A DNA stretch of 64,000 nucleotides. Origin: a candidate division WOR-1 bacterium RIFOXYB2_FULL_42_35 (GTDB lineage Bacteria > Margulisbacteria > WOR-1 > O2-12-FULL-45-9). A program made the translations under genes and the position numbers. The notes beneath the pieces were generated by a model. The model searched no databases, had not been told where the DNA came from, and worked only from the letters and a program-made list of their open reading frames with translations. Positions 27,201 to 56,171 of this stretch are shown here, in pieces. Location: the NCBI GenBank assembly GCA_001771545.1, contig MEUC01000011.1, forward strand, positions 1-64,000, written 5' to 3'. Every line of letters begins with the position of its first letter. Position 1 is the first letter of the stretch.

Positions 27201-27305
27201 AATATGCAAGTTGCATTATAACAAATCGAAGAAGGTTAGCAAGTAATGAAATTTTGTTGAAATTATTATAAATCTTTGAAGATAATAAACTAGAGAGGAA
27301 AACCA

Positions 27306-46003: not shown

Positions 46004-47965
46004 TTATTCGTAACGCAAAGCAACAATTGGCAAGAGCTTGGCCGCCCGCCAGGCTGGCCAGAGACCAAAGACTACTCCAACTAAAACCGAGAAAGTAAAA
46101 GCCAGGATGATCGAACCTAAAGAAATTAAAACATTCCAACCGGCAAAGGTAGCCAAGCTAAAACTAATCAACGAACCAAAGCCAATCCCCACAATCCCGC
46201 CAAAAAGACAGATTAAAATCGACTCAACCAAAAACTGGACCATAATATCACTTTTCTCCGCTCCCAAAGCCTTGCGCAGGCCTATTTCATGAGTCCGCTC
46301 CATCACCATCACCAGCATGATATTCATAATCCCAATACCACCAACCAGTAAGCTGACCGCAGCAATCGCCCCTAAAAGATAGGCCAAGGTTGAGATCATT
46401 TCGCCGGCTGCCTTTTGAATCTCCGCCATATTACGAACTTCAATACTATCGCTTTGAGACTCTGGTAAGCGATGCAGTTTCACCAGCTGCACGATGATTT
46501 CATCCTGAACATACTGCATTGAATTTAGATCACTAACCTGAACGTCAAAGTAGCTAATATAATCACTGCCTAACAAACGATACATCGCTGTTTTTATCGG
46601 AATAACTATTTGATCATCAACATTACGCCAGCCAGAGACCCCTTTTTCCGGCATCACACCAATAACATTAAAGCTGACCTTATTAATGCGAATCCATTTC
46701 CCCACAGGATTTTCGGCACCAAACAATTCAGTTGCCACCGTTTTACCAAGCACAGCAACTTTGGCTCGGCTGGCAGCCTCTGCGGCTGTAAAAAACCGGC
46801 CAATATCCGGCACAGATTCACGCACATACTGAAAATCGTAATTGGAACCAACAATTGAAGTATTCCAGTTACGATTTTGATAAACCGCCTGTCCTCGACC
46901 GCTAACATACGGCGCCACCTTTTCAACTGATTCAATTTGCTCGATCACAGCTAAATCAGCAAAGGTAAAACGAGTTACAGAATCTGAGCCCAGGGAAATT
47001 CCATGACTGCGCTGTGAAGTTCGCACCATCAATAAGTTTGTGCCTAAACCGGAGAGTGTCTTCTCCATAGCCTTTTGCGCCCCTGTGCCTAAGGCCAACA
47101 TGGTGATAACTGCAGCTACGCCAATCATCACCCCTAAAATAGAAAGGAAAGAGCGTAATTTATTATTTAGCAGAGATAAAGTTGCTTCATAGCAATAATC
47201 CTTAAGGCGCCCAAAAGAAAAAACACTTTTCCCTTTCTTATCTCCCCAATTAAAGACAGGAACAGAAGTTTTTATCCCGGGTTGTTTTCGATCGTCAGAT
47301 AAAATACTGCCATCACGCAAAGTGATAATTCGTGAGGCATGGGCAGCCACATCGTGCTCATGCGTAACCATGATAATCGTATTGCCTTGGGCATTAAGTT
47401 CTTTTAATAAATCAATGATTTCTTGCGACGATTTTGAGTCGAGGTTCCCGGTTGGTTCATCCGCCAGGATAACTAACGGCTTATTAGCTAAGGCACGGGC
47501 AATGGCCACTCGCTGCTGCTGCCCACCAGAAAGTTCATTAGGCCTATGATGTAAGCGGTCTTCCAAACCAATTTTCTTTAATACTTCGACACTGCGCTGA
47601 CGGTTCTCTTTTGAGGCTTCGCCGGCATAGATAAAAGGCAACATGGTATTATCGGTAACATTGAGTTTGGGCAGGAGATTGAACATTTGAAAAATAAAAC
47701 CAAAAAAGCGGTTGCGCAAACGGGCATACTCATTTTCAGTTAACCCGGTAATATCCTTGCCCAGCAATTTATACTCACCGTTATCGGCATTGTCCAGCAG
47801 ACCTAAAATCGCCAGCAGGGTTGACTTACCGGAACCGGAAGCCCCCATAATCGCCACGAATTCGCCTGCCTCAATCTTAAGGGAAACGCCCTGTAAGGCA
47901 TGGACAGGCAGGTTGCCGCCAATATAGTAAGTCTTAACAATAGAATTGAGTTCAATTAAAGACAT
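46004..47965 (-). CDS. macB: MacB-type ABC transporter (ATPase fused to permease)
   Basis: A 653-residue mechanotransmission ABC protein. The N-terminal ATPase has [12 protein letters not shown] near residue 39, Q-loop QMFNLLPKL near 93, [15 protein letters not shown] near 143 and [10 protein letters not shown] near 165. The membrane half has one helix near 275, a large periplasmic domain (300-525) and three C-terminal helices with the [25 protein letters not shown] coupling motif. It completes a TolC-MacA-MacB operon for export of a small molecule or lipid-like substrate. Start ATG 47965 touches the last base of macA. Confidence 0.93.
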
Positions 47966-48957
47966 TAGTTTTTCTTGGTAAAGGGATTAATTGGCCCCCG
48001 ACGACCAGTCTCCGGAAAAAGTTCCTTGGTCAGCTTCGAAGTCGGAACAACCAACGTTTGACCATCAGCAAGCCCGGAGAGCACCTCAAGATCAGTAGTA
48101 TTTTCTAATCCAACTGATATTTTAACGGCTTTAATCTCTTTGGATTCTTGATCACCAGTAAAAACATAAGCCTGCCCCTTGACCTTTTTGACAACTTTGA
48201 GAGGAACCAGCAAAGCATTGGCTTTCTCATTCAAAACAAAATCCACGGTAGCGCTCATCCCCGACCTAAAAAACGGGGGCACTTCATTTGGAATAACATC
48301 AACCGTATAAACGGTGACATTACTTATTTCTTCGGCTTCATAAGCAATGTGGGAAACATAACCGGGAATTTTCTTACCCTGATAAGCGTCAAGTTCAATG
48401 GCAACTTTTTGTTTAAGCTTGATCTGACCAATATCAGTTTCATCTACCTGAGCTTCAACGATTAAACGATCAGCCATAACCAAGATGGGATCAGCTGCTG
48501 TTACAGATTGTCCCGGCTCAATATCCCTTTTAACAATAAAACCGTTGAGGGGTGCAATGATTGGCGCCGGCTTATAAATATCCTGCCAATGTTTATATTC
48601 ATCTTCTCCTTGAGACCTGGCAGCATCCAACAAAGTTGCCCTCTCACTGGAGCTCATCCAGGCTAAAACCTGTCCAGTCCAAACCTTTTGTCCTTCTGTG
48701 ACTAAAACACTGTCAAGCCGTCCGGCAATTGGCGGTTTTATTTCTACACGATTTCTAGGCAAAACAATCCCTGTCGAAGGCAGGGTTGCCAAAATATTGC
48801 CCCGTTTAACTTTAACGAATTTGAGAGGCTCTTCACTCTTGCCAGCACAACCAAACAATAAAAGAACCAATCCCAAAACAAAAAAAGTCAGAAACTTTGT
48901 CTTAAAATAATTAATTCCATAATTTTGATCTTTGATTTTTGATCTTTGATTTTTCAT
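47965..48957 (-). CDS. macA: MacA-type periplasmic adaptor lipoprotein
   Basis: A 330-residue membrane-fusion protein linking MacB to an outer-membrane duct. A lipobox (LLLFGC near residue 38) indicates lipid anchoring. The lipoyl half-motifs (GIVLPRNRVEIKPPIAGRLDSV and FIVKRDIEPGQSV) flank a short hairpin, then beta-barrel and membrane-proximal domains. The first ~20 residues (MKNQRSKIKDQNYG) are coded by tandem AAATCAAAGATC-like words, an in-frame repeat insertion before the signal peptide. ATG 48957 has GGAGGGAC upstream and overlaps the tolC-like stop (ATGA). Confidence 0.9.
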   Translation of the reverse strand: MKNQRSKIKDQNYGINYFKTKFLTFFVLGLVLLLFGCAGKSEEPLKFVKVKRGNILATLPSTGIVLPRNRVEIKPPIAGRLDSVLVTEGQKVWTGQVLAWMSSSERATLLDAARSQGEDEYKHWQDIYKPAPIIAPLNGFIVKRDIEPGQSVTAADPILVMADRLIVEAQVDETDIGQIKLKQKVAIELDAYQGKKIPGYVSHIAYEAEEISNVTVYTVDVIPNEVPPFFRSGMSATVDFVLNEKANALLVPLKVVKKVKGQAYVFTGDQESKEIKAVKISVGLENTTDLEVLSGLADGQTLVVPTSKLTKELFPETGRRGPINPFTKKN

Positions 48958-50305: not shown

Positions 50306-50334
50306 TTGACAAATATTACTTAACCGGTTAAACT
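50306..50334 (+). promoter_or_regulatory. sigma-70 promoter with MarR-type operator
   Basis: TTGACA (50306-50311), 17 bp, TAAACT (50329-50334): a near-consensus promoter driving the MarR-TolC-RND operon. The perfect 12-bp palindrome TTAACCGGTTAA (50320-50331) covers the spacer end and part of the -10, where a bound repressor would block polymerase. This is the expected autoregulatory site for the MarR domain encoded 23 nt downstream. Confidence 0.75.
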
Positions 50335-50356
50335 ATTTATCAGGTTAACTATTTTT

Positions 50357-52243
50357 ATGGCTAAAAACATCAAAGAATATGCTGATAAATTCGAAAGCGT
50401 TATGCAGGGCTTTATTAAAACCCTGCACTCCTCATCCGACTCTTCCCAGCCCAACAACCTGGATATAACCATTGGCCAATGTCTTGTTTTACAAAATCTA
50501 TATCAAAACGACAACTGCAAAATGTCCGACCTAAGCAAAGCCCTTGGCGTTACCCTCCCCAACATAACCGGACTAATTGATCGGCTAGAAAAAGAAGGCT
50601 TGGCAAAAAGAAACCACGACCCAAAAGATCGTCGCATAATTAGAATCACTCTCACAACAAAAGGCAAAAAAACCATCAAAAAGATCAAACAAAAAAAGCA
50701 GCAGCATCTCAGCTCAATTCTTGGTAAAATAACAAACAAAGAGAGGAAAACATTAATGGAAATCATGGAGAAAATTGCCGCGAAGCTAAAAAAAACCTGC
50801 GCTATCGTCACAATAGCCCTGCTCTGTTCCGGAGCTGTCTTTGCCAATAGTACGTTGAGCCTGGACGAATTCATCAAAACAGCCGTTAAAAATAACCCTC
50901 AATACCGAATCTCTGCCCAGGACTATCTAATTGCCTTAGAACAAAACAAATCGGCCAATTCCCTACAGGACTGGAACTTGGTAGCTTCAGGGTATTTTAA
51001 CGAGGCAAACCCACCGCAAGCCAGCTCTTTCTCCCCCAGCTACCAAAAAATTGCCAGCTACTCATTTGGAGCCAGCAAATACCTGGCGGCATCAGGAACC
51101 GGCATTGAAATTAAAAACAGTAATACCAGAATGGCAGCCAATTATGGCTCAGCCAGTGCATTTTTTCCCACCTCACCCTATTACACTTCTAATTTATCAT
51201 TAACCATTACACAACCACTCCTGCGTAATGCTTTTGGCCTGGCAACAAGAAACAACCTGGCCATGGCCGATAGCGCCCTGTCCATTGCCAAAGTCAAACT
51301 AAGTGAGGACTGGGAAAACTTTCTTACTACCCTAAAAGAAGAATACTTTAAATGGCAGTTGTGTCATTTAAACATTACCAATTACCAAACTAAAGTCAAA
51401 AAAGTTGAGGATCAGCTGGCCTTGGTAAAAAAACAGAACCGCTACGGTTTGTCAGAAGATCTTGACCTGGTGCAAATCGAACAAAAACTCCAAGGCTACA
51501 AAATTATGCTGGCACAAGCTGAAATGGCTTGCGATAACCAAACAGAGAAAGTCCTGGGTTTGATTAAAAAATCCAACCTTGACTATCCCACCATTAGCCC
51601 GGAAAAATTCGTTAAAGACGGTACCGTGCTGCCAAAAGAGCAAGCCATAGCTTACCTGCTTAACAACTCCAATTTAAAACAAACCACTGATCTTTTGGTC
51701 AAGATACAACAGCAAAATCTCAACTCCAAAGACAACCAATTACTGCCCGACCTTAACTTAATTGCCCAGTATAAGCCCAACGCCTTAACTTACAATTTTA
51801 GCGACAGTGTTATGCGGGTTGGCAGTAAAAGCGAATACAGCATTACCCTAAGTGCTTCCAGGACATTAGCCAACGACCAGGCCAACGCCGAAGCTAACAA
51901 AGCCAAGGCAGAATACGAAAAAGTCTTAAAAATTCAGGACAACACCCTGCTTAATGCCCAAGTTGGCCTGACCAATCTCTACACCACCCTCTCTTATTTA
52001 GATAGTATGCTGGAGCTTAATAAACAGAGCTTAAAATTGGCCCAAGAACGGTTAACACTGGAACAAAAAAAGTTTAATCAGGGCCGTAGTTCGGTCTTTT
52101 TTGTCCTGCAAGCTGAAGATGATGTTTTGGCCGCAGACAATACTTATCTGGAAATACTTTTTAACCGCGAAAAGGTTATCAATCAAATTAAATCATTTAC
52201 TGACCGTTATTTAATTGAATACAAGGAGCTGCTAAAAATATGA
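50357..52243 (+). CDS. MarR regulator fused in frame to a TolC-like outer-membrane protein
   Basis: One uninterrupted frame of 628 codons. Residues 1-140 are a complete MarR regulator (MSDLSKALGVTLPNITGLID helix-turn-helix near 56-75, wing DPKDRRIIRITLT near 93-105). Without a stop it continues into KLKKTCAIVTIALLCSGAVFA (a signal peptide, about 142-162) and a ~465-residue TolC-family protein (ending SFTDRYLIEYKELLKI). An internal ATG at 50756, with GAGAGG 9 nt upstream, could give the TolC part separately with its own signal peptide (residues 134-628). Full-length product would have DNA-binding and outer-membrane parts joined; either internal initiation or cleavage is expected. The next gene, an RND pump, overlaps by 4 nt. 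Confidence 0.85.
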   Translation: MAKNIKEYADKFESVMQGFIKTLHSSSDSSQPNNLDITIGQCLVLQNLYQNDNCKMSDLSKALGVTLPNITGLIDRLEKEGLAKRNHDPKDRRIIRITLTTKGKKTIKKIKQKKQQHLSSILGKITNKERKTLMEIMEKIAAKLKKTCAIVTIALLCSGAVFANSTLSLDEFIKTAVKNNPQYRISAQDYLIALEQNKSANSLQDWNLVASGYFNEANPPQASSFSPSYQKIASYSFGASKYLAASGTGIEIKNSNTRMAANYGSASAFFPTSPYYTSNLSLTITQPLLRNAFGLATRNNLAMADSALSIAKVKLSEDWENFLTTLKEEYFKWQLCHLNITNYQTKVKKVEDQLALVKKQNRYGLSEDLDLVQIEQKLQGYKIMLAQAEMACDNQTEKVLGLIKKSNLDYPTISPEKFVKDGTVLPKEQAIAYLLNNSNLKQTTDLLVKIQQQNLNSKDNQLLPDLNLIAQYKPNALTYNFSDSVMRVGSKSEYSITLSASRTLANDQANAEANKAKAEYEKVLKIQDNTLLNAQVGLTNLYTTLSYLDSMLELNKQSLKLAQERLTLEQKKFNQGRSSVFFVLQAEDDVLAADNTYLEILFNREKVINQIKSFTDRYLIEYKELLKI

Positions 52244-55200
52244 GAAACCTATTTAAATACTTTATTGAACATCCCAAATTAGTTAACCTCTTCCTTGTAC
52301 TGGTCATTATTATGGGCAGTCTCTCTTTTATTAATCTTAAACGTGACAGCATCCCTAACGTTGATTTCAAGATGATGTTTGTCAGCACAATTTATCCCGG
52401 AGCCGCACCAGAAGACGTAGAAATCAATGTCACGATTCCCATCGAAGAACAAATCCAAAGGGTAACCGGTATTAAAGATTTGCAATCGTTTTCAACAGAA
52501 AACATCTCCACAATTTTTATTGAAATTGACCCGGACGCCAAAGATGTGGAAGAGGTTAAGCGTGATATTTACAAAGCTGTTGATCGTGTTGCTAATTTGC
52601 CGCCGCAAGTCAAAGATAAGCCCTTGGTCATTGAGCTAAAATCAGAGGTCTTTCCTGTCTTTGAAATTGCGGTTTCCGGCAACGGCAATACCTCTGAATT
52701 AAATCTAAGAAAATATGTTGATATTTTGGATAAAAAAATCCGGCTTCTAGCCGGAGTAAGCGGCACAAAATTAGTCGGCTACCGCAAACGGGAGATCAGA
52801 GTCGAAGTTGACCCGCAAAAGCTGGAAGATCAATATGTTTCGCTGGCCGAAGCTATGGCTGCAATTAAAGCTACTAATGTACGCCTAAGCGGTGGCACCA
52901 TCCAATCTTTAGCTGCTAAGAAAAAAGTTATTACCCTGTCCCAATTTGATAATCCCCTTGAGGTAAAAGAGGTAATAGTCCGCTCGGCCTTTTCCGGTCA
53001 ACGTTTAATTATAAAAGACCTTGCCAAAGTTTCCGACAGTTTTGAAGACGAATCTAGATTAATTAAAACTAACGGCAATAAGTGCATTAATATAGTAGTG
53101 GATAAAAAAGCGACTGCCGATGCCGTTAAAGTTGCCGGTTCAGTCTCACAACTGCTAAAAAAATTCAACCAGGACTTGCCTCAAGGCATCAAGGCCCAAG
53201 TTGTTAAAGATTATTCTGTTTACGTAAAAACAATGCTTAGCGTAGTTATCTCCAATGCCTTATTTGGTTTTTTTCTGGTTGTCATCTGCTTAATGATTTT
53301 CCTGGATATCCGGGTCGCCTTTTGGACGGCGATGGGTATTCCCTTTTCTCTGCTGGTGGCTTTTTATTTTATGCCGATTTATGATGTCGCCGTCACCACC
53401 CAGGCACTACTCGCTTTTGTAATTGTTTTGGGTATGCTGGTAGATGATGCCATTGTGGTGGCTGAACATATTTTTTCCTATCGGGAAGAAGGCCTAGATG
53501 CCGTGGAAGCTTCTTTACGAGGAGTCAGCGAAGTCTTTTGGCCGGTCTGCGCTACAGTTGCTACCACCATTGCCGCTTTCCTGCCTATTTTACTGATGGG
53601 CGGTATTTGGGGTGATTTTATTAGGGCCATACCGATTGTTATTACCGTTACTCTTTTGGCCTCACTGTTTGAAGCCGCCTTTATCCTGCCGGCACATTTA
53701 GCCGGCACCAAGCTAAAACAAAAAGGCAAGCCAAAACTTCTGGTCTTTTTAGAAAATTGGTATCGCCGTAATCTCATTAGAGTTTTAAAGAAAAAAAATC
53801 TCTTTATCGGGCTTTTTATTTTAATCTTTATTTTTTGCACCGCTGTTATTCTTCCCAAACTTGGGTTTGTGCTTTTTCCTTCTTCAGACAATGATGTTGT
53901 TCAAATCAAGATTGAAACCCCTAAAGGGACCCCTCTTTATGAAACCGAGCATCGGGTAACTGAAATAGAAAAAATCATTACAGCAACAGTCCCTGAAAAT
54001 ATATTAGCGAGCTATGTTACCACTATTGGCGAAAAAGGGACTGATATGTGGGACACTGTTTCCGGCATGACACAAGACCATTGGGCCAGGATAGCAGTTA
54101 ATCTTATTCCAGCCCAAAAAAGGAAAATCTCGGCAAAAAATCTAGCCCAGCAGCTGCAGGTTAAACTAGAAAAACTTAAACAGTCTGACAAATTTACTGA
54201 CGTTGCTGTAATTGCCCTGCGCGGCGGCCCGCCTAGCGGCAGCCCAATTGACCTGACTTTTATTGGCAATAACGATGAGATCAGAACCAATTTAGCCGAT
54301 GAATTGGTCACCTTCCTAAAAAATACCGATGGGGTTTATGATCTTGATCGCAATGACGAAAAAGGCTTAAAAGAGCTCAACATTAAACTTAATTACAATT
54401 TGATGTCTGATCTAGGCATCACAGCCCTTGATGTGGCTCAAGTAGTAAGGGCGGCAATTGCCGGCACAGTTGTAACCTCTATCCGCAAAGAAGGCGAAGA
54501 AATTGATTTCAGAGTAATGCTAGCAGAACCGTACCGCAACAACCCCGAATATATCAAAGAATTAACAATTCCCAACCGTTTCGGTAAACTAATCAGCTTA
54601 GGCAGCTTTATCCGCTTTGAGGAAAAGATCTCTGCCCTGGGCATTCCCCATATGCAAGGAGATCGCTCGGTTAAGATCACCGCTGAAATAGATCAGAAAA
54701 AACTAAACTCCAAGGAATTTAATCTGGTTTTAAAAAATAAATTTGCGCCCCTGGCCTTAAAATATCCCGGTTTTAGGCTGGAGTTTGGCGGCGAAGAAAA
54801 GATCGCCAATGATTCATTGTCTAGATTTTTTCGCTCTATGATTATTGCCCTGGTAGTAATCTATATTATCCTGGTGGTATTGTTTAACTCTTTTACCGAG
54901 CCAATGATCGTAATGACAGCCATTCCCTTTGGTCTGGTGGGAGTGATTTTGGCTTTTGCTCTACATCGCGAACCGTTAAGCTTTTTAGCCTTGATCGGGA
55001 TTCTGGGCTTATCGGGTGTAGTTGTTAATAATTCCCTGGTTATGCTCGAATTTTTAAACAATGAAGAAGAAAGGGTTTGTGATCAGGGAGAAAAATTAAC
55101 CCTAGAACATATTGCTGATGCAGCTAAATTAAGATTTAGGCCAATCATCCTAACAACCGTTACAACTGTGGCTGGCATAATCCCTTCTCTCTATGGTTTC

Positions 55201-55353
55201 CTTGGCGGCCGGGTAGACTTTTTGTTCCCCCTACTGCTAGCTTTAAGCTGGGGACTGCTCTTTTCCACCTTTATCACGCTGTTTTTGATCCCGTGTTTTT
55301 ATCTGGTGGAAAAAGATGTCACTTGTTGGCTGTCTAGCAAATTAAAAAAATAA
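52240..55353 (+). CDS. RND-family efflux permease
   Basis: A 1037-residue AcrB/HAE-type inner-membrane pump with the usual twelve helices and two large periplasmic loops. The proton-relay acids are in GMLVDDAIVVAEH near residue 401, and the signature PGAAPEDVEINVT lies near 50. The end of the first helix reads NLKRDSIPNVD. It pairs with the TolC-like domain encoded just upstream. No periplasmic adaptor is in this operon; the only one nearby is the divergent MacA. ATG 52240 overlaps the previous stop (ATGA). Drug, lipid or metabolite substrate unknown. Confidence 0.95.
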   Translation: MRNLFKYFIEHPKLVNLFLVLVIIMGSLSFINLKRDSIPNVDFKMMFVSTIYPGAAPEDVEINVTIPIEEQIQRVTGIKDLQSFSTENISTIFIEIDPDAKDVEEVKRDIYKAVDRVANLPPQVKDKPLVIELKSEVFPVFEIAVSGNGNTSELNLRKYVDILDKKIRLLAGVSGTKLVGYRKREIRVEVDPQKLEDQYVSLAEAMAAIKATNVRLSGGTIQSLAAKKKVITLSQFDNPLEVKEVIVRSAFSGQRLIIKDLAKVSDSFEDESRLIKTNGNKCINIVVDKKATADAVKVAGSVSQLLKKFNQDLPQGIKAQVVKDYSVYVKTMLSVVISNALFGFFLVVICLMIFLDIRVAFWTAMGIPFSLLVAFYFMPIYDVAVTTQALLAFVIVLGMLVDDAIVVAEHIFSYREEGLDAVEASLRGVSEVFWPVCATVATTIAAFLPILLMGGIWGDFIRAIPIVITVTLLASLFEAAFILPAHLAGTKLKQKGKPKLLVFLENWYRRNLIRVLKKKNLFIGLFILIFIFCTAVILPKLGFVLFPSSDNDVVQIKIETPKGTPLYETEHRVTEIEKIITATVPENILASYVTTIGEKGTDMWDTVSGMTQDHWARIAVNLIPAQKRKISAKNLAQQLQVKLEKLKQSDKFTDVAVIALRGGPPSGSPIDLTFIGNNDEIRTNLADELVTFLKNTDGVYDLDRNDEKGLKELNIKLNYNLMSDLGITALDVAQVVRAAIAGTVVTSIRKEGEEIDFRVMLAEPYRNNPEYIKELTIPNRFGKLISLGSFIRFEEKISALGIPHMQGDRSVKITAEIDQKKLNSKEFNLVLKNKFAPLALKYPGFRLEFGGEEKIANDSLSRFFRSMIIALVVIYIILVVLFNSFTEPMIVMTAIPFGLVGVILAFALHREPLSFLALIGILGLSGVVVNNSLVMLEFLNNEEERVCDQGEKLTLEHIADAAKLRFRPIILTTVTTVAGIIPSLYGFLGGRVDFLFPLLLALSWGLLFSTFITLFLIPCFYLVEKDVTCWLSSKLKK

Positions 55354-55532: not shown

Positions 55533-56171
55533 TTACTTCACTAAATTAATTCTCCAGGGCAAAGATCTTCTTACTATTTCTTCCAGACTTTTATTCCCTT
55601 TTATTTCCGATGTTGGCTGGGGCATCTCTTTTAACCTATTATTTTCTGGCCCAACATTTAGATCATCAAGGTCTGGTGGCAAAACTCTTATGACTGGCTC
55701 AGCTTCTCTTTTTACCGGTTGCCATTTTATAGGAAGCTTAATATCAGGTAAACTTGCTGTTTGCTCTGGGTATGCTTTTAAATCATCTGGGTCTGCAGGC
55801 AAAGCTCTTATGACTGGTTCTTCAAGGGCTTCTGGGTTCGCTGGTATAGCCCTAAATACCGGTTCTTGCTCATCCGGGTTTTCTGGCAAAGCTGGCAAAG
55901 CTCTTATGACTGGTTCTTCAAGGTCTTCTGAGTTCGCTGGTATAGCCCTAAATACCGGTTCTTTAAGCTCATACGGGTTTTCTGGCAAAGCTGGCAAAGC
56001 CCTTATAACAGGTTCTTTTCCCACCAGAGAGACAAAGTCCTGGAAATCCTCCCCACTAATTCCTGGGTTTTCTGATTGGCAAGTTTTTCCATCCTTATTC
56101 TTATCCAAAGCCTTTACTGCCTTTTTGAAACCAGGCTTAACATCACCCGTATTTATACATAAATCTCCCAT
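55533..56171 (-). CDS. EF-hand-like protein with tandem EPVIRALP repeats
   Basis: A 212-residue protein with no signal peptide visible. Residues 18-36 (KALDKNKDGKTCQSEN) resemble an EF-hand calcium loop. From residue 53 there are about six proline-rich repeats of 15-18 residues alternating EPVIRALPALPENP and EPVFRAIPANxExLE, then a looser REAEPVIRVLPPDLDD. The tail ends in a basic stretch. The EF-hand start resembles that of the 34693 protein. AAAGGAGAA precedes ATG 56171. Unrecognised family; perhaps a calcium-responsive, extended scaffold. Confidence 0.65.
   Translation of the reverse strand: MGDLCINTGDVKPGFKKAVKALDKNKDGKTCQSENPGISGEDFQDFVSLVGKEPVIRALPALPENPYELKEPVFRAIPANSEDLEEPVIRALPALPENPDEQEPVFRAIPANPEALEEPVIRALPADPDDLKAYPEQTASLPDIKLPIKWQPVKREAEPVIRVLPPDLDDLNVGPENNRLKEMPQPTSEIKGNKSLEEIVRRSLPWRINLVK

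Follow-up and report, generated by a model that had tools for sequence, protein, structure and literature searches.

A MarR repressor domain and a TolC-like channel in one reading frame at the head of an efflux operon in a candidate division WOR-1 bacterium

A single 628-codon frame on the forward strand (50357-52243), whose sole stop in ORF translation is the terminal one, encodes a MarR repressor domain followed by an outer-membrane channel (OEP) of the TolC type. This raises the question of whether the frame makes one protein or two, and of how a repressor and a secreted channel came to share it. Coordinates are those of the window, the whole stretch of 64,000 nt that was analysed from contig MEUC01000011.1; the source assembly is one MAG in 51 contigs, 93% complete, and its nearest named relatives in a search of GTDB contigs were Ca. 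Saganbacteria and Ca. Margulisiibacteriota MAGs. The features on which the argument turns are as follows.

50307-50335, + strand: putative promoter, TTGACA and TAAACT with a 17-nt spacer and the perfect palindrome TTAACCGGTTAA (sequence; pattern conserved in relatives)
50334-50348, + strand: second operator-like copy, TATTTATCAGGTTAA, 17 nt 3' of the first (sequence; pattern in relatives)
50357-50797, + strand: MarR repressor domain, residues 1-147, DPKDRR wing intact, without its own stop (Pfam, alignment)
50740-50746, + strand: internal Shine-Dalgarno (SD) sequence AGAGAGG, 9 nt 5' of ATG 50756 (-8.0 kcal/mol; unpaired in the predicted fold)
50756-50758, + strand: ATG of M134, the probable internal start for the channel (in frame; SD strength)
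50788-50795, + strand: A8 run at the join (CTAAAAAAAACC); A7 or A9 in the mRNA would give a MarR of 152 or 164 residues
50789-50845, + strand: residues 145-163, KKTCAIVTIALLCSGAVFA, a signal peptide whose likely cut lies between VFA and N (hydropathy, OEP alignment)
50846-52243, + strand: mature TolC/OEP outer-membrane channel (PF02321, E=1.3e-28; TolC fold match)
52240-55353, + strand: RND efflux permease, with a 4-nt ATGA overlap with the OEP (ACR_tran, E=2.3e-180)

Domain content of the frame

Both halves of the frame are recognised by Pfam, with PF01047 (MarR) at residues 37-95 (E=5.4e-16; 58.7 bits against a cut-off of 24.6) and PF02321 (OEP) in two stretches, the best of which covers residues 428-614 (E=1.3e-28; 100.5 bits). 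Residues ~33-145 match solved structures of MarR regulators by sequence, the D-x-x-D-R-R wing reads DPKDRR, and the N- and C-terminal flanking segments align with MarR relatives. A Foldseek comparison of the predicted model returned E. coli TolC and OprM-type channels (best E=3e-17). The model has a mean pLDDT of 72.6 with low confidence in the MarR part, because the alignment contained only one MarR homolog; in it one helix, residues 127-162, spans the last MarR helix and the signal peptide. The Kyte-Doolittle peak of the whole protein falls in the 15-mers starting at residues 147-150 (2.0-2.4), after which comes VFA followed by N. A lipoprotein signal at the cysteine of IALLC was rejected, the preceding residue being L, contrary to the usual lipobox rule. 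An earlier note on this DNA had described a MarR domain, a signal-like stretch and a TolC domain in one stop-free frame, and the ORF, Pfam and hydropathy results bear this out. The frame is not a chance linkage of two ORFs: each half is significantly homologous to its family, and the homologies from the two sides cover the join (see below). A MarR-family regulator is expected to be a separate cytoplasmic protein of ~140-160 aa; here the frame runs on into the OEP, and the signal segment that precedes the OEP part is N-terminal only if ATG 50756 or ATG 50765 is used.

The join and the layout in relatives

Homology from the MarR side continues in frame 0 to residues 143-147, beyond the internal ATG (identity with G012 and G010 is 45-46%; their C-terminal ends before the stop are IMGKIAAAMKEEGAK and IMEKIAEAMKGEKHE, respectively). 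From the other side, the signal peptides of OEP relatives (n=5) align from window residue 144-145 through 163. Each of the five closest OEPs (47-53% identity) is encoded by a gene of its own, which begins with ATG in four cases and with TTG in G006; in the alignment these starts fall at or beside the position where the window reads K-L-K-K; at the relatives' start position the window has CTA and no start codon. The join is tight: MarR lacks its final few residues as well as a stop codon, and the start codon that OEP genes usually have is absent too. The +1 frame contains a TAATG at 50754-50758, which was rejected as the end of MarR because the frame-0 homology passes beyond it and another +1 stop lies at 50730.

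The same MarR-OEP-RND order is found in G020 (Ca. Margulisiibacteriota MAG, JAHJIW010000011.1, L035), with an OEP 51% and a MarR 37% identical to those of the window and a promoter/operator pattern that resembles it. G020 differs in having separate MarR (ending in KHE before the stop) and OEP genes with an 8-nt out-of-frame overlap, ATGAATAA; the statement of the earlier note that MarR and TolC are normally separate genes thus holds in this distant relative. Among the five closest OEP relatives four have no MarR gene directly upstream, and in G006 the contig stops 0.1 kb upstream. The closest MarR proteins (G010 and G012) precede HlyD-RND genes and abut or overlap the next start, and in more distant OEP-RND operons the OEP is overlapped by a TetR gene by 1 nt (G050) or by a PadR gene by 4 and 14 nt (G032 and G043). 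Such related operons (L007, L008 and L010, around 1510-1534) thus place regulators of different families (TetR, PadR and PadR) at one position, with an overlap of 1-14 nt in every case; read from sequence, this pattern is one in which the regulator is replaced and the overlap kept.

Overlapping stop/start pairs are widespread, and 13 of 14 pairs tested were found to be coupled (PMC6728339). The frame is like such coupled pairs of the ATGA/TGATG type (PMC6728339) in that the regulator end and the next start lie on the same nucleotides with the SD inside the upstream gene, but its two parts overlap in one and the same frame, with no stop between them. A stop that overlaps or abuts the next start is present in the relatives; in the window there is no in-frame MarR stop. 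Given the overlapping layouts of the relatives, the frame is best read as the usual overlapping pair turned in-frame, and the join would have arisen most simply by a small deletion between the two genes' A-rich ends.

The earlier note had proposed a search for other MarR-TolC fusions, and none emerged from 74 genomes of the phylum or from the GTDB-contig matches of an alignment-based scan. A scan of genome contigs with the fusion as a single protein gave zero relatives, whereas the alignment query did recover relatives. The whole fusion had no match among plasmids, and a search of open-access papers turned up none that describes a MarR-OEP fusion.

One concern with any join seen once is an error of assembly or sequencing, the living cell having separate overlapping MarR and OEP genes as G020 does. 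The join comes from a single 51-contig assembly, and none of the genomes compared is of the same genus. Against this, a run of A7 or A9 would end MarR normally, yet leave no ATG, GTG or TTG before the OEP signal peptide. An in-frame stop made by substitution would leave the OEP startless until TTG 50855, past the signal peptide, and a frameshift 5' of 50756 conflicts with the frame-0 MarR homology to residue ~147. It would take two errors or more, or a collapsed stretch, to produce the join from separate genes. As judged from the sequence no single-base read error would account for the join and a read error is unlikely; an artefact of either kind is considered quite improbable.

Starts and products of the frame

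The anti-SD duplex at ATG 50756 has an energy of -8.0 kcal/mol, compared with -3.7 at MarR's own start and -3.3 at the second in-frame ATG (50765, M137), all computed with an assumed anti-SD sequence that may differ from this genome's own. Such a duplex is equalled at 4 of the 309 (1.3%) internal in-frame ATGs in the 52 called genes of the window and is reached by a third of the first ATGs of window genes. With two candidate ATGs looked at, the rank is therefore worth roughly p=0.03 and is not decisive. The gene at 27294 begins behind a near-identical SD string, AGAGAGGAAAACCA. The SD of 50756 being stronger than at about 98.7% of internal ATGs and stronger than that of MarR, the OEP by itself is probably the main product of the frame. 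The proposal of the earlier note that an internal start at 50756 yields TolC alone thus gains support from the computed SD strength and unpaired state, and a check of the leader shows that the OEP would then carry MEIMEKIAAKLKKTCAIVTIALLCSGAVFA, an acceptable though long signal peptide. The frame would give two products, mostly OEP and, in smaller amount, MarR-OEP. In-frame nested genes, where an internal start gives an N-terminally shorter product, are alike in having one frame, two starts and a shorter form made from an internal SD; the difference here is that the shorter form would be a whole secreted channel, and the extra part of the long form a full DNA-binding protein.

The account that is favoured, and considered reasonably probable, is that the frame is the head of a self-regulated MarR-OEP-RND operon with an in-frame join, from which OEP is made mainly from ATG 50756 together with a minor long form. 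The overlapping junction would have been swapped for the in-frame join, probably through a small deletion or rearrangement that took out MarR's stop codon together with the start that the OEP usually has. The OEP would initiate mainly at ATG 50756, within the C-terminal helix of MarR, by means of the strong internal SD and be exported with a normal signal peptide, while ribosomes at the weaker MarR start would give the long form; no other complete MarR product is encoded. The long form would repress its own operon either as an uncleaved cytoplasmic precursor or as an N-in, membrane-anchored MarR. If untargeted, it would be a cytoplasmic repressor with its tail unfolded or degraded; if Sec-targeted, it would be cleaved by signal peptidase behind residue 163, which would leave MarR at the inner membrane with the signal segment still attached. 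One point against this account is that a 147-residue domain before the signal peptide could block export of the long form.

The fate of the repressor after cleavage had been suggested by the earlier note to be release by signal peptidase, but the topology is against this. A cut after VFA keeps the hydrophobic segment with MarR, so that MarR would stay anchored unless a second protease acts. Judging from hydropathy, MarR would thus be membrane-anchored after cleavage if the long form is exported. A long form that works as a membrane-tethered MarR repressor derived from an exporter precursor, and whose amount or membrane cutting reports Sec export of its own channel, is considered unlikely, and the self-sensing circuit raised by the earlier note is a guess.

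It has also to be asked whether the frame makes one protein only, an obligate MarR-OEP precursor that would be cleaved to an anchored MarR and a channel at a fixed 1:1 ratio in a ToxR/CadC-type layout. The promoter and MarR start are intact, the modelled helix 127-162 joins MarR and the signal peptide (with low confidence in the MarR part), and membrane-bound one-component regulators are widespread, with >100 types of DNA-binding domain (PMC10269533). If the long form is inserted, it would be like the ToxR/CadC-like regulators in having an N-terminal cytoplasmic winged-helix and one hydrophobic segment; it differs in having a MarR domain in place of the ToxR type, a hydrophobic segment that serves as a cleavable signal peptide, and an outer-membrane channel on the far side (PMC10269533, PMC5430869). 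However, a strong internal SD and ATG sit just 5' of the signal peptide, signal peptides are ordinarily N-terminal and the architecture occurs in no relative among the 74 genomes of the phylum. An obligate precursor is accordingly given a slim chance.

A different route to a free repressor would be slippage at the A8 run, where A7 or A9 mRNA, or frameshifting on A_AAA_AAA, would release a MarR of 152 or 164 residues and the unslipped product would be the fusion. The A7 form would end in AAKLKKPALSSQ before its stop and its 152 aa are near the 148-153 aa of the nearest MarR relatives; the heptamer A AAA AAA is in the correct phase. Some bacteria use runs of 9A and shorter runs may slip in some species, but evident slippage is mostly at nine As (PMC1088944). 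Eight runs of eight A or T occur within the window, and lysine-rich signal peptides yield such runs by chance. No stable fold was found around the A8 run that could act as a frameshift-stimulating RNA structure (z=+1.3), and slippage is held to be very improbable.

Operator, operon and meaning of the join

In the favoured account the operon is self-regulated. The palindrome TTAACCGGTTAA (50320-50331) extends from the spacer into the -10 element, and the promoter/operator pattern is kept 5' of the MarR genes of seven relatives, with the consensus TTGACAAATATTAGTTAACATnnTAAACTATT. It therefore looks like an autoregulated MarR promoter, and a palindromic operator at the regulator's own promoter, as expected for the MarR family, is present here as a putative site. 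The fusion's MarR domain is the only one above the Pfam cut-off in the source genome.

These findings bear on a further explanation, that the fusion is a recent accident in which MarR regulation is being lost, the long form has no role and OEP is made from the internal start. The fusion is in one genome only of those searched, and a MarR gene directly upstream is absent in four of the five closest OEP relatives. MarR is nevertheless undecayed (45% identity over its full length), with the wing motif intact and the operator conserved, and an accident is regarded as distinctly improbable.

The MarR-OEP frame diverges from an OEP-HlyD-MacB operon at 50183-46004. Operator-like copies TACTTAACCGGTTAA and TATTTATCAGGTTAA (50317-50348, 17 nt apart) overlap the promoter and may control the divergent operon too. 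The operon of the RND permease (52240-55353) has an OEP partner and no HlyD-type adaptor, as is also the case for its counterpart in G020. There are two HlyD_3 proteins in the genome, one of which (47965-48957) is in the divergent MacB operon and might be shared with the RND permease. On the minus strand at 55533-56171 lies a 212-aa ORF in which EPVIRALPA/EPVFRAIPAN units are repeated; near its start it has an EF-hand-like stretch, DKNKDGKTCQSE, and Pfam gave no match for this ORF.

The locus is an ordinary, tightly packed efflux operon with ordinary parts, made unusual by the way in which these are joined in one genome. If it is merely an in-frame overlap, it warns that automatic annotation will list one MarR-TolC protein for a locus with two products. 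Should the frame be used the way it reads, a single gene would encode a repressor together with the secreted outer-membrane channel of the pump under its control, which would show that an overlapping regulator-transporter pair can become an in-frame fusion with both domains intact and would provide a natural test of how Sec handles a DNA-binding domain ahead of a signal peptide.
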